Shown piece by piece: positions 2,076 through 53,600 of a stretch of 64,000 nucleotides of DNA; the first letter of the stretch is position 1; each line of letters begins with the position of its first letter. The position numbers and the translations under genes are program-made. Under the pieces are notes generated by a model, which was not told where the DNA came from, searched no databases, and saw only the letters and a program-made list of their open reading frames with translations. Source of the DNA: Achatina immaculata (Eukaryota > Mollusca > Gastropoda > Stylommatophora > Achatinidae); assembly GCA_009760885.1 (NCBI GenBank), contig CM019707.1:36387234-36451233 (forward strand), read 5' to 3'.

Positions 2076-2239
2076 TCATCATCATCATAATATGTTCTCA
2101 AACATATTGCCCACACCTTTTAATCTTTATCTCTCAGTTTCAAACATTTTTCTTCACCCCTCCCCCTCCCCCCTCTCTCTCTTTCCCTCTCTCTCTCTCT
2201 CTCTCTCTTTCCCTCTCTATATAAAACTATATAAAAGAC

Positions 2240-3495
2240 AACACAATAGAGGTTACAAGCACTCGAGACCTGCTGCCTGAGAAGGATTCTAAACACCAAA
2301 CAGCAGGACAAGACCAGGAACGAGGAGGTCTAGGAAAGAGAAGGACAAGACCAGGAACGAGGAGGTCTAGGAAAGAGAAGGACAAGACCAGGAACGAGGA
2401 GGTCTAGGAAAGAGAAGGACAAGACCAGGAACGAGGAGGTCTAGGAAAGAGAAGGACAAGACCAGGAACGAGGAGGTCTAGGAAAGAGCAGGACAAGACC
2501 AGGAACGAGGAGGTCTAGGAAAGAGAAGGACAAGACCAGGAACGAGGAGGTCTAGGAAAGAGTAGGACAAGACCAGGAACGAGGAGGTCTAGGAAAGAGA
2601 AGGACAAGACAAGGAAAGATGAGATCTAGGAAAGAGTAGGACAAGACCAGGAACGAGGAGGTCTAGGAAAGAGAAGGACAAGACAAGGAAAGATGAGATC
2701 TAGGAAAGAGTAGGACAAGACCAGGAATGAGGAGGTCTAGGAAAGAGTAGGACAAGACAAGGAAAGATGAGATCTAGGAAAGAGCAGGACAAGACCAGGA
2801 ACAAGGTCTAGGAAAGAGTAGGACAAGACCAGGAACAAGGTCTAGGAAAGAGCAGGACAAGACCAGGAACAAGGTCTAGGAAAGAGCAGGACAAGACCAG
2901 GAACAAGGTCTAGGAAAGAGCAGGACAAGACCAGGAACAAGGTCTAGGAAAGAGTAGGACAAGACCAGGAACAAGGTCTAGGAAAGAGCAGGACAAGACC
3001 AGGAACAAGGTCTAGGAAGAGCAGGACAAGACCAGGAACAAGGTCTAGGAAAGAGTAGGACAAGACCAGGAACAAGGTCTAGGAAAGAGCAGGACAAGAC
3101 CAGGAACAAGGTCTAGGAAAGAGTAGGACAAGACCAGGAACAAGGTCTAGGAAAGAGCAGGACAAGACCAGGAACAAGGTCTAGGAAAGAGCAGGACAAG
3201 AGCCTTTGAATCTACAAATCATGTCATGAAAATGGAGATGGGCTGGCCACACATGAGAAAACCAGACACCAACATAACAAGGCAGGCACTGACATGGAAC
3301 CCCCTGGGGAAACAGAAATCAAGAAAGGCCCAGAACTGCTTGGAGGAGGGAAATTATGAAAGTGCTTAGAGACATGGAGTGAAGCAGAGAACAAATCCAT
3401 GAACAGGGATGACTGGAGAAACTTTATCCATGGCCTATACCCCCAAGGGGGTGACAGATGATGATGACGACGACGACGATGATGATGATATATAA
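2240..3495 (+). mobile_element. LINE family F copy containing a 0.9-kb internal minisatellite
   Basis: The left part (2250-2305) aligns with the 52.8 kb copy (AATAGAGGTTACAAGCACTC and TGAGAAGGATTCTAAACA). The right part (3195-3495) aligns with 53.3-53.6 kb (CTACAAATCATG, GGCCACACATGAGAAAACC, CAAGGGGGTGACAG). It ends in a (GAT/GAC)n tail. Between them lies the tandem array, where the other copy has one unit. Confidence 0.85.
2306..3197 (+). repeat. 37-/34-bp minisatellite, about 25 units, derived from LINE F
   Basis: Two blocks. To about 2790, 37-base units of GGACAAGACCAGGAACGAGG plus AGGTCTAGGAAAGAGAA; afterwards 34-base units lacking one GAG. A variant unit with GACAAGGAAAGATGAGATC alternates in the first block. 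The unit corresponds to LINE coding sequence (QDKIRNEKVWVRAG region). Confidence 0.93.
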
Positions 3496-3839
3496 AACTA
3501 AATATACAAATATACAGAAGCTACTGCAGTAAAGTTGTGACAGCAAAATATTAAAAATATTTAAAACAAAATTATAAAAAGCTTTATCAATTAATGAGCA
3601 CACAACTGTATCACTTCAGTTTACACCTTAATCATACAAAAATATACAGGGTAAAGAAACAGGGAAAGAAGATAAAACATAAATTCTCAGCAATAAACAG
3701 AAAAAAAAACAAAACAAAACAAAATGGAGCACTTAGCTGTGGCTTGCAAGAATCTACATCCAAGAGAGAGTGTGAGGGTGGTTTTAAGTACTATGAATGT
3801 TCAAATAAAAACTTACAGGTGAGGTAGGCTGACAGTTAA

Positions 3840-4450: not shown

Positions 4451-4924
4451 TAGTGCTTTTACAGACTAAAAACAATGGCGTTTCCAAGTGTGGGATAGTA
4501 GCACAGACTGTGATAATGTGGGCATTCACAGAGAAACACTCACCCAGCGTAGTACACGTGTGAGTATATGATTATGTGTATGCTCAAATTCAGGGCCGTG
4601 CTTATGTCTGTAAATCGATATAACGATTATCCAGACATATAACCTCGCCATAAAGCGAAAAATGACGTAAAGCGTATTACACAGAGGTGAACATACAGTA
4701 CATAACTTCAAAAGACACGACATATTTTAAAACACAAACACAAAAACTAAAATTACAATGACATTAAATAAGCAAATGTTCATTAATATATGGCTGTAAT
4801 GAATCATCGTAATACGGGATATCGGAAAATGGAGACTACTATATCTGCATATTTCTGTATGTGTGGTGTATCCGTGTGAACAAATTTATAGACGTCAATG
4901 TATGTGAGAATTTTGGAGAATTTT

Positions 4925-5950
4925 AAGTCTATATGGAATACCATCTAAAAATGTCAACATCATTAAGGACTTCTACAATGGATATGTTTGTGCGCTTGAC
5001 AGAAGAAGGGATGAGTGAATGGTTCCAGATTGAAACAGGCGTGAAACAAGGATGTATACTGTCTCCTTTACTTTTTGGGATTACAATAGACTTCATAATG
5101 AAAAAATGCTGCACAGGTAACACAGGTATTGACTGGGTACATGGGACCCAACTAGAAGATTTTGATTTTGCTGATGACATAACTCTTATCAGTAATAATG
5201 TGAATTCCATGCAAGAAAAAAACAGATGGCCTGCCTTCACTGGCTAGCAAAATAGGACTTGAAATTAACAAGGACAAAACAAAAATAATGAAAATTCCCA
5301 TTAATCAAAATGGAAAAATACACACAGAAGGGACAGATATTGAAGAAGTCAATCAATTTGCATACCTTGGCAGCTACATAGACCAGGATGGTGACACTAG
5401 AAAGGAAGTTAGAATCAGAATTGCAAAAGCAGCATCGATCTTCAAAAATCTTGAGAACATACGGGATTCAAAAGTTATAAGCACAAAAACCAAGTTAAGA
5501 CTATTCAATTCAAATGTAATATCCACCCTCATTTATGCATGCGAACGCTGGAAAACAACTAAAGAAATAGACAACAAATTAGACTCTTCTGAAAACAAAT
5601 GCCTAAGGAAAATACCCGGCATCAAGTGGAACGAATTCAAGAACAATGCAGAGATAAGACAGATGACTGAACAACAACCAGTCTCATGGGTGATCAGGAA
5701 AAGGAGATGGACATATATTGGTGATATGATGAGAAGAAACGATCAGAGAATCCCAAAACAAGCTATCAAAGAAAAAGAGGCAGACCGCGTGAAACTCTGA
5801 AGAGGACACTGTTAAGAGAGGCTAAATTAACAGGCATAAAATTCCTTGATGAGGTTGAAAGACTCGCCGAAGACAGGAAAAATTGGCGAACTACTTTGCG
5901 AGCCCTATGTGACGTTTAATGGCACGGGAAGGATATAAGATATAAGATAA
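4925..5950 (+). mobile_element. LINE family B, reverse transcriptase palm to C-terminus
   Basis: The reading starts in the RT palm. VKQGCILSPLLFGITIDF and FDFADDITLISNN contain the conserved SPLLF and catalytic FADD motifs. A frameshift near 5240 leads into a second open stretch (5288-5800): FAYLGSYIDQDGDTRKEV, STLIYACERWKTTKEID, CLRKIPGIKWNEFKNNAEIR and RRWTYIGDMMRR. A further shift near 5795 precedes the terminal WRTTLRALCDV and stop. The 3' tail is GGATATAAGATATAAGATAAG. 5'-truncated and inactive. Confidence 0.9.
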
Positions 5951-39937: not shown

Positions 39938-40174
39938 ATCAACTCGACTGAGATGTGCGGATGTGGCACCAGTAAGATGACAAGAGAATATATTCTATGG
40001 GATGCCCAAAATATGAGGAACAAATGTTGCTAATGCCTGTAACAGTTTAAGAAAAAATTTTATGGGGATGTACTTAAAGGTTCAGATGACCATCAACAAC
40101 TTCAGAAGTATACAAGTGGATGTCTGAAAATAATCAAGGAAGTTATGGGACTGGAAAAAAAAATAGTTCCTCAC

Positions 40175-41777
40175 CAAAATAGTCCCCAGCTGCTACTTGA
40201 TCCATCTCATCCTCCAATTGCTGAGTCAGGGCTGCCAACTTCCGTTCTGCATCTGAAGGACCTTTGGGCTTTGGAGGGGTGACCTGAAAAGCCAGGTGGG
40301 ACTTCATTCCTGGTGATTTAACTGAGCGAGTCAGAGGGGATGATGGACCGGTCTGGACTTGGATGCCCTGTACTGGAGCCACAAGCCTAATATTTGGCTT
40401 CTGTGGCTGGGCCACACCGGGTGGATATTTGGCTGAAGTCTGAACATCGTGAGGGCCATGATAAGGAGGTGGTGGTTCAATCTGCCCATTGTTGTGTGGA
40501 GAATCAGGACCTCTTCTTGATGATGAACTAGATATGCTCATGTCTCGTTCTAGCTGTTGTGTCAAGGCTGCAACTGCCTTTTCTGCATCTAAATTTGAAT
40601 TCTTCGCCTCATGAACTGTGTTTACAGGTATCCTAACTGGCAATGAAGGAGAGGCATTATGATTCTCCAAGGTATGCTGATTATTTGAATTCCTGCTTGC
40701 TGGTGAATGAGATGACACATTCACATGAGATCCTTCATTTGCTGTTGATTTCACTATTCGGCCCCCAACATTCGTTGCATAAGTTGTTGTGTGAACACTA
40801 GCAGCCATTTGTGGTGGCAGGGTTCTCTGTCGAGGGTCTGTATAAATGTGCTCACTGAATCTGCTGTCACCACGAGGACCTAAACTTATTACAGACTGCG
40901 ATACTGATGGGTAAGACCGAGTAGTGCTATCATGTTCTGAACTACCTACAATTCTCTGAACTGGTATTTGATCTTGAGCTCCAATATAACGGGAATCAAA
41001 TGATCCAGCATTCCATGCTTTCTGCTCAAAAAATGCTGGATTGGTCACACTAGCACGAGGACTAGAGTTCTTGGAATCTCCTCCGCTGCCAACACTTGAA
41101 TGAGGGCTAGAGTTACCACCTGGTGCTGTTGGGTCTGGATTGTATACCATTTGGTACTGTACGCTGATCTGGTGGGGTTTCCCGGGTGCGGATGGGTTTA
41201 CCAGTGCTGCCTGTGAAGTGGGATAACGTGTGCTACCGATCAGGACACTGCCGTCTGAAGATGGAACACCAACAGGCGACATTGATCTCACACCCTGCCA
41301 AAGGACAGATCCAGGTGGATAGTTGGTTGATGCCGCAAGTCCGACATTTCCTGCCACCATGGAAGACGGGATGGGTGGAGGCTTCGCATCCCTCATTCCG
41401 ACTTTACTCACAAAAGCGGATCTCTGGTCAGTGCCGGGTGGCCGTCCATAATACAGGCTATCACCATAATTTGCCTGACTGAAATTACCGTCATCTCCTT
41501 GACTGGATGTATACACACTACGCCCTGGGTACGAATTATTACCCAGTGATCTATTATAACTGTTACTTTCGACGCCCCTAGCATCCGTTGAATTGGGTGC
41601 TAAGCCATCAGAAGATTTCGAACTTACCACATCGATTTTAAGATCATGTCTCTGGGCCGGGTTATCGCTGGTGGCTGTGCTAAACCCGGCACTGCTGAAT
41701 CGTGTTACACTGTATGTGTGATCTCCATCACTGAATACATTCACATCCTTGTTTATCTTGCCCCCATAGACGGCCAT
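40175..41777 (-). CDS. jub: Ajuba/LIMD1/WTIP-family LIM protein, first coding exon (pre-LIM region)
   Basis: Encodes 534 residues plus one base. The ATG at 41777-41775 has G at +4 and an in-frame TAA 42 bases upstream (41822-41820), which supports this start. Residues 1-500 are low-complexity, rich in Ser, Pro, Asn and Tyr, and probably disordered. A PPPPYH stretch (residues 435-440) contains a PPxY motif. Two related segments, AEKAVAALTQQLERDM (398-413) and AERKLAALTQQLEDEM (510-525), precede GDYFG. The AER..ALTQ.LE...DYFG sequence just before LIM1 is characteristic of the Ajuba/LIMD1/WTIP family, scaffold proteins known to act at adherens junctions, in P-bodies and as inhibitors of LATS/Warts in Hippo signalling. 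The exon ends at a donor GTGAGG (40174 downwards); reading through gives ten foreign residues and a stop. Family call strong; orthology to a particular vertebrate paralogue cannot be resolved. Zyxin/LPP is a less likely alternative. Confidence 0.88.
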
Positions 41778-52652: not shown

Positions 52653-52671
52653 ATGTATTATAAATTCAAAT

Positions 52672-53600
52672 CTATAATAACATCTAAGAACACCAAAACA
52701 AGAACCAGACTTAGGCTTTTCCGTACAAAGATAAAAACTGTCCTGCTATATGGTTCGGAGACATTGGTTATGACCAAGACACTACAACAGAGGATACAAA
52801 CATTCATGAACTACTGCTTGAGAAGGATTTTAAACATTAAATGACAGGACAAGATCAGGAACGAGAAGGTCTGGGTAAGGGCAGGACAAGAACCTATGAA
52901 CCCACAAATTATTCCTTCATTTGCATGTCCCCTGCAGAACTTTGCCTCCCTAACAGCTCTCCTGTAGGCCTCTTGGTTGTGAGCAAGATGGTCTGCAGCT
53001 GATGCATCCATTTGCAGATCATCAATGATGTTTTGGTCTTCCTCTCTTTCTTTTCCCCATTATGTACTCTTTCAAGATGGTCTTCTCTAAATTCACATGA
53101 CGTTTAATGTGTCCAAATTATTTACGTTTTCTTTGTTTAATCCTCTTTACTAGCCAGCCTTCTTCAATATTAAGTTTGTAGTATGGATATATTTGTTCTT
53201 TTTTGTGTCCATGATATCTGAAGAACTCTTCTGTAGCATTTATATTCAAAGGGATTTAAGTGTTTCTCAGATGTTTTGTTAAGTGTCCAGGTCTCACAGG
53301 CATATGTTGCCTACAAATCATGTCTAGGAAATGGAGGTGGATTGGCCACACACTGAGAAAACCCGACGCCAGCACAGCAAGACAGGCACTGCCATGGAAT
53401 CCTCAAGGAAGTAGAAAACGAGGAAGACCTAGACTTACTTGAAGAAGAGAAATTATGAAAGTGCTCAGAGACAAGGGATGCACACGGAAGGAAGCAGAGA
53501 GTAATTCCAAGAACAGGGATGACTAGAGAGCCTTTATCCGCTGCCTATGCTCTCAAGGTGGTGAAAGGCAATGATGATGATGATGATGATGATATAGATT
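52672..53600 (+). mobile_element. LINE family F, RT C-terminal region, interrupted
   Basis: Encodes KTRTRLRLFRTKIKTVLLYG, SETLVMTKTLQQRIQTFMNY and CLRRILNIK, then a stop, then QDKIRNEKVWVRAGQEPM. After the family C insertion it resumes with WRWIGHTLRKPDAS and WNPQGSRKRGRPRL. The 3' end is CAAGGTGGTGAAAGGCA followed by (ATG)n. Contains one copy of the unit that forms the 2.3-3.2 kb minisatellite. Confidence 0.85.
52904..53321 (-). mobile_element. LINE family C fragment inserted in LINE family F
   Basis: ACAAATTAT (52904-52912) and ACAAATCAT (53313-53321) flank a 400-base family C 3' fragment. Removing it restores a sequence that aligns with the uninterrupted family F copy at 3.2 kb (CTACAAATCATG). 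Confidence 0.88.

Follow-up and report, generated by a model that had tools for sequence, protein, structure and literature searches.

At one coding site of a LINE family, the number of copies of a short unit is 0, 1, 2 or 4-69 at different loci, with a phase common to the arrays read. We consider this probably a minisatellite origin of the Haber-Louis type that has recurred at a single site in one LINE family. Haber and Louis, in 1998, are said to have described the origin of minisatellites between direct repeats of 5-10 bp. The genome was searched as one assembly of 1.65 Gb in 145 contigs.

The window (the whole stretch of DNA analysed, 64,000 nucleotides long, at G000:C24:36387234-36451233) includes two copies of this LINE, the first with an array and the second with a single unit:

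2218-2229, plus strand: left target-site duplication TATATAAAACTA of copy 1, a 12-bp exact match with 3489-3500
2235-2303, plus strand: LINE 5' flank of copy 1; 2235-2295 aligns with copy 2 at 52776-52836
2304-2312, plus strand: left native direct repeat CAGGACAAG of copy 1; the family consensus form is the 12-bp GGCAGGACAAGA
2306-2786, plus strand: 13 tandem units of 37 bp each (from TRF and unit starts)
2787-3193, plus strand: a further 12 tandem units, of which 11 have 34 bp and one has 33 bp (from unit starts)
3192-3200, plus strand: right native direct repeat CAGGACAAG of copy 1, with the LINE 3' flank next
3202-3488, plus strand: LINE 3' flank of copy 1 with a (GAT)n-like tail (from similarity to copy 2)
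3489-3500, plus strand: right target-site duplication of copy 1, matching 2218-2229
52670-52912, plus strand: LINE copy 2, 5' part with the single unit
52845-52853, plus strand: left direct repeat CAGGACAAG of copy 2
52882-52890, plus strand: right direct repeat CAGGACAAG of copy 2
52913-53312, minus strand: fragment of another LINE inserted in copy 2, with diverged borders CCCACAAATTATT and CCTACAAATCATG and boundaries set by eye
53313-53597, plus strand: LINE copy 2, 3' part with a (GAT)n tail

We identified 25 tandem units in the window array, delimited by 26 GGACAAGA starts at 2306 to 3194. TRF reports the array at 2298-3201 with a period of 37, 25.4 copies and 94% matches. The insertion that forms copy 1 is truncated at its 5' end, about 68 bp upstream of the site, and is flanked by the 12-bp target duplication TATATAAAACTA. 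The window unit is 86% like copy 2 and the array sits inside a TE copy (target-site duplication and flanks); it is a TE-derived tandem repeat in the sense of a unit at least 70% like the TE and an array within the TE copy. An earlier note on this DNA had seen an expanded array in copy 1 and a single unit at the same LINE site in copy 2, and unit count and alignment confirm this. When the array is represented by one unit and the insertion in copy 2 is omitted, the two copies are 75% identical over 419 columns (E 1e-82); the 3' flank alone (3212-3483 and 53311-53593) is 76% identical over 284 columns. The flanks do align on both sides, as had been claimed, but the right flank of copy 2 is broken by about 400 bp (52913-53312). 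This insertion belongs to another LINE family, of which other pieces in the window are 78-90% identical. For the direct repeats of copy 2, the earlier position 52882 is correct and 'about 52851' should be 52845.

In all 25 window units, the TGG (Trp) codon of the ORF is replaced by TAG. Because every unit carries TAG, either the Trp-to-TAG change predates the window expansion or homogenisation spread it. The birth had been placed inside a LINE reading frame. That frame is not a working one, as the copy is truncated and there is a stop codon in all units. AACAAGGTC is the sequence of the 34-bp unit and is read in all 12 short units, which are found on the right side of the array, after the 37-bp units. 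Removal of one GAG from AACGAGGAGGTC gives AACGAGGTC; reaching AACAAGGTC also takes a G-to-A change. The split into 37-bp and 34-bp blocks, attributed earlier to loss of one GAG, thus involves the 3-bp loss but needs the substitution as well. Window units 9, 11 and 13 alternate in carrying a second variant, which suggests expansion by unit pairs. In the window as a whole (1-64000), we identified 121 tandem-repeat rows, many of which are minisatellites of 24-53 bp, and a 544-aa minus-strand ORF at 40143-41777, the end of which may resemble LIM proteins of the zyxin/LPP type.

The consensus of 32 single-unit copies (L014, L038, L040, L041 and L045 excluded) is AAATGGCAGGACAAGATCAGGAACGAGGAGGTCTGGGAAAGGGCAGGACAAGAGCC, in which GGCAGGACAAGA occurs twice, 37 bp apart. 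The consensus therefore has the form expected of a Haber-Louis ancestor, a single unit flanked by short direct repeats. A family consensus with many units was looked for as counter-evidence and is absent; the 32 copies give one unit. The 12-bp native repeat is the longest direct repeat in the 420-bp consensus segment, and the next (within 150 bp) is 8 bp. In Markov-randomised sequences, with spacing of 12-60, a repeat of at least 12 bp appeared in 10/2000 and one of at least 9 bp in 389/2000. A match of at least 9 bp is still present at the site in 17 of the 32 single-unit copies; the other 15 are without it.

The site encodes WQDKIRNEEVWERAGQE, which is intact in the close relative P0001 and in L029. 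The two 12-bp repeats lie in the C-terminal coding region of the LINE and encode ...WQDK... and ...AGQE..., spelled alike in different frames. One 37-bp step shifts the reading frame. Beside the site, a stop-free piece of L029 matches DUF6451 (E 3.6e-14, 52.8 bits, cut-off 28); the same profile gave no match on the copy-2 fragment or on P0001. The host element is a DUF6451-type LINE (non-LTR retrotransposon), presumably of the RTE clade, to judge only from its C-terminus and tail type. The LINE protein has named relatives in snail, clam, amphioxus, schistosome and moth, and no relatives were found in the phages and viral contigs searched. The single-unit spacing fits 79 of 120 family proteins, by a pattern that admitted that spacing alone and with the other 41 not read.

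Units were counted across copies of this LINE, as the earlier note had proposed, in two flank samples. For the 3' flank of the window copy, the best 40 of 3238 first-look candidates were the window copy and 39 others: 32 single-unit copies, two arrays (L020 and L037), one small duplication (L045) and four copies without a complete site. For the flank of a young copy, the best 40 of 4318 were the query L088 (an array), the already-seen L024 and 38 others, of which 31 are single-unit, one is an array (L129) and six are without the site. Joined, and with the query copies excluded, the samples contain 77 copies: 63 single-unit, three arrays, one different small duplication and 10 without a complete site. 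Arrays are present in 3/67 site-bearing copies, queries aside, in samples that are non-random. The centre of the earlier reading, that one unit flanked by short direct repeats expanded into the array, is supported by this sample together with the one-unit consensus. In L045 (1440-1510) there are about three repeats of a ~15-bp piece within the 37-bp segment; thus, other periods also arise at the site.

At least 63 places in the genome have two or more units, and 38 of these were read as sequence. Five window units used as query gave 145 matches in 35 places by grouping (best 40 of 338 candidates; four places not read). A query of five L088 units added 18 places (best 40 of 529 candidates; none read), and L129 adds one place. 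The array search ranked matches by likeness to the window array and so favours homogeneous arrays of 37-bp period. An exact junction pattern gave 165 matches, with 0 in the control. Among the 100 junction matches listed (C1 to C12), spacings within loci are mostly multiples of 37 bp; from these matches come three more places that have several junctions each and six that were verified by reading. Nine single-junction matches were read (two more were not). Three are dimers (L160, L161 and L162) and three are longer arrays (L156, L158 and L159). The remaining three, L155, L157 and L163, had been candidate two-unit sites and were rejected, as on reading they proved to be single-unit copies.

The 31 arrays that were fully read have a 37-bp unit and 4-69 units each (577 in total). 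BLAST identified the LINE 3' flank in 30 of the 31; it is absent from L073, and there is a gap before it in L072, L076 and L091. At least 13 bp of left flank precede the first repeat in 26/31 (by eye where short). The left flank is 5-7 bp in L079, L083 and L090, and none is clear in L077 and L086. Period and phase correspond to the spacing of the repeats, as in a Haber-Louis origin: the period is 37 and the right end falls at the native repeat. Target-site duplications of at least 9 bp were identified in 2 of 18 arrays tested (12 bp in the window copy and 9 bp in L093; null 0.3% of pairings). No duplication is claimed for the other arrays, because only these two reach 9 bp.

Some loci have further features. 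The locus L084 has two 37-bp arrays about 3 kb apart in opposite orientation, at 1513 (minus) and 4480-5263 (plus). An array of about 2.5 kb with 69 units is located at G000:C19:24793918-24796430, and one of about 2 kb, found by similarity, at G000:C31:4872610-4874681. In L069 (1170-1497) there are six 50-bp units from the LINE 5' flank, in the same copy that also has a 37-bp array. A direct repeat of at least 5 bp with spacing of 44-55 was looked for in the first 130 bp of the consensus, and none was found.

The zero-unit state, in which the left flank is joined to the right through one repeat, was identified at 13 exact sites (control 0), and five inexact zero-unit copies were also read (L135, L148, L150, L152 and L154). 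Thus, a unit has been lost exactly between the repeats in at least 18 copies, which is the reciprocal loss of a Haber-Louis origin. The pattern used for the 13 sites had been lengthened with left flank. The pattern AAATGGCAGGACAAGARCCTATGAACC, with 62 matches, was rejected as an indicator of zero-unit sites, as 13 of 20 fetched are single-unit or truncated copies; in these false cases the right border differs by one base. The earlier note had described one birth, with copy 2 as the single-unit state. A single birth does not hold, given at least 63 multi-unit places and at least 18 losses. Nor is copy 2 the ancestor; its position is in the younger subfamily.

Several separate births and losses are likely, although their number is unproven. 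Multiple births are likely because each of the two subfamilies includes array copies, with units that match the copy in which they lie. When 27 array and 33 single copies are placed on a tree by their flanks (60 in total), 15 changes of the array label are required, compared with a mean of 19.9 for shuffled labels; the starred young clade holds five of the arrays, and the other 22 lie outside it. The starred branches force only two changes, gain plus loss is possible, and most inner branches are weak. Four arrays (L072, L073, L076 and L089) have too little 3' flank and were left out of the tree and the timing. The ATC unit type is present in 6/6 young-flank arrays and in 4/25 others (Fisher 2.9e-4), a count in which L073 is called young by its 5' flank alone and L072, L076 and L089, which have no place on the tree, are taken as old. 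For the zero-unit state, six copies (L136 is probable) require five changes on the tree, and all six copies lie in the young clade; L154 is not among the rows.

The clustering of arrays beyond that of shuffled labels, on weak inner branches, runs against independent births. It could also reflect one or a few array-bearing source elements that transposed and so spread the array, an explanation that we regard as very improbable. A single clade for the first three array copies is not rejected (AU p 0.15), and the two arrays without a clear left flank (L077 and L086) would also fit with it. However, such sources do not explain why arrays in both subfamilies have units of the host's type. In 26 of 31 arrays, the 5' end is at least 13 bp upstream of the left repeat and not within a long array, and 37-bp steps break the reading frame. 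In addition, the window copy groups with the single-unit copy L012 (SH-aLRT 80-84). False tandem expansion during assembly or sequencing is hardly credible. Although there is one assembly only, we identified variants within arrays, fixed differences between arrays, dozens of loci and graded divergence.

Half the pairwise unit divergence is below the flank divergence in 25 of 27 arrays, with a median ratio of 0.33. Half the unit divergence plus the fixed unit changes is approximately equal to the flank divergence at the median (0.99). The array L051 is contrary (0.044 for half the unit divergence and 0.023 for the flank), and L020 also runs against late birth. There is no increase in unit number with flank divergence (rho -0.08). 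Flank divergence is 0.152 in old array copies versus 0.100 in old singles (p 1.2e-4), the singles having been picked for likeness to the window. This timing is consistent with arrays that were born, or last homogenised, long after the insertion; the data do not separate these two cases.

Expansion in place does not predict the excess of array copies truncated just before the left repeat. The 5' end lies within 30 bp upstream of this repeat in 10/31 arrays by script, or 12/31 by eye, versus 6/64 single-unit copies (p 0.008 and 0.0014, respectively). When only the 33 old singles are compared, these values become 0.07 and 0.02. The test left out 10 copies without a complete left site (four old and six young), and L094 and L095 were reclassified by eye. 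If real, the excess suggests that the reverse transcriptase slipped during insertion. Stutter during target-primed reverse transcription, in which the cDNA end would slip from the left 12-bp repeat back to the right one and then recopy or skip the unit, would make arrays, dimers and zero-unit copies products of insertion. It would account for array copies often ending just upstream of the site. We consider it unlikely. The dimer L160 starts within the left repeat, three of seven zero-unit or probable zero-unit copies read (L136, L148 and L154) start close upstream by eye, and half the unit divergence is at least 0.9 of the flank divergence in L020, L077, L088 and L051. However, this ratio is below 0.8 in 23/27 arrays, so arrays look younger than their insertions, unless homogenised. 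Changes in all units, such as the window TAG, need a source RNA that already had them or homogenisation. The numbers are also small, and the 30-bp cut is a post hoc choice.

For the preferred Haber-Louis origin, we envisage that a LINE copy inserts with one unit, and that slipped replication or unequal exchange between the 12-bp repeats may first delete or duplicate this unit. Once two units are present, further slippage, unequal exchange and gene conversion could expand and homogenise the array. The window array would be an event of this kind, in an old copy that was 5'-truncated and had already acquired a stop codon. At a later stage, one window unit would have lost 3 bp and gained a substitution, and the spread of this unit over the right half would have produced the 37-bp and 34-bp blocks. 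No host function is indicated.

Minisatellite origin between short direct repeats is established, as are TE-derived minisatellites with hotspots, according to the portions of the literature available (PMC6947457, PMC3389668). The site resembles a Haber-Louis origin, as far as accounts of it were accessible, in the single unit between short direct repeats, the gain and loss of units and the later expansion; it differs in that the same repeat pair recurs across a large LINE family. Because of this recurrence, births and losses are replicated at one site. The accessible part of one study reports 7,276 human TE-derived tandem arrays, of which 300 are flanked by direct repeats of 5-20 bp, with hotspots in AluS, and two established models explain 6% of the arrays (PMC3389668). 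These arrays share with ours a unit from an interspersed repeat, direct-repeat flanks and a hotspot in the element, whereas here one LINE coding site has zero, single, dimer and array states together (PMC3389668, in part). PROsat and Pvc20 are described, in the section available, as L1-derived satellites from LINE ORF2. They are also tandem arrays out of a LINE coding region, but here short arrays stay inside LINE copies (PMC9659126). The SINE-derived repeats of squamates, as summarised in the available text, are satellite-like and likely tied to subtelomeric regions. They emerge repeatedly from retroelements and are incompletely homogeneous, as here; however, theirs have many variants and ours one fixed LINE site (PMC10702118). 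In open-access titles and the starts of abstracts, we found no description of a single LINE site whose unit number ranges over zero, one, two and many across numerous loci.

The beginnings of minisatellites are poorly known. Here, a 37-bp cassette with a known repeat pair is present in thousands of candidate LINE copies, and its unit states can be counted against repeat match and age, which makes this family a natural replicated experiment.
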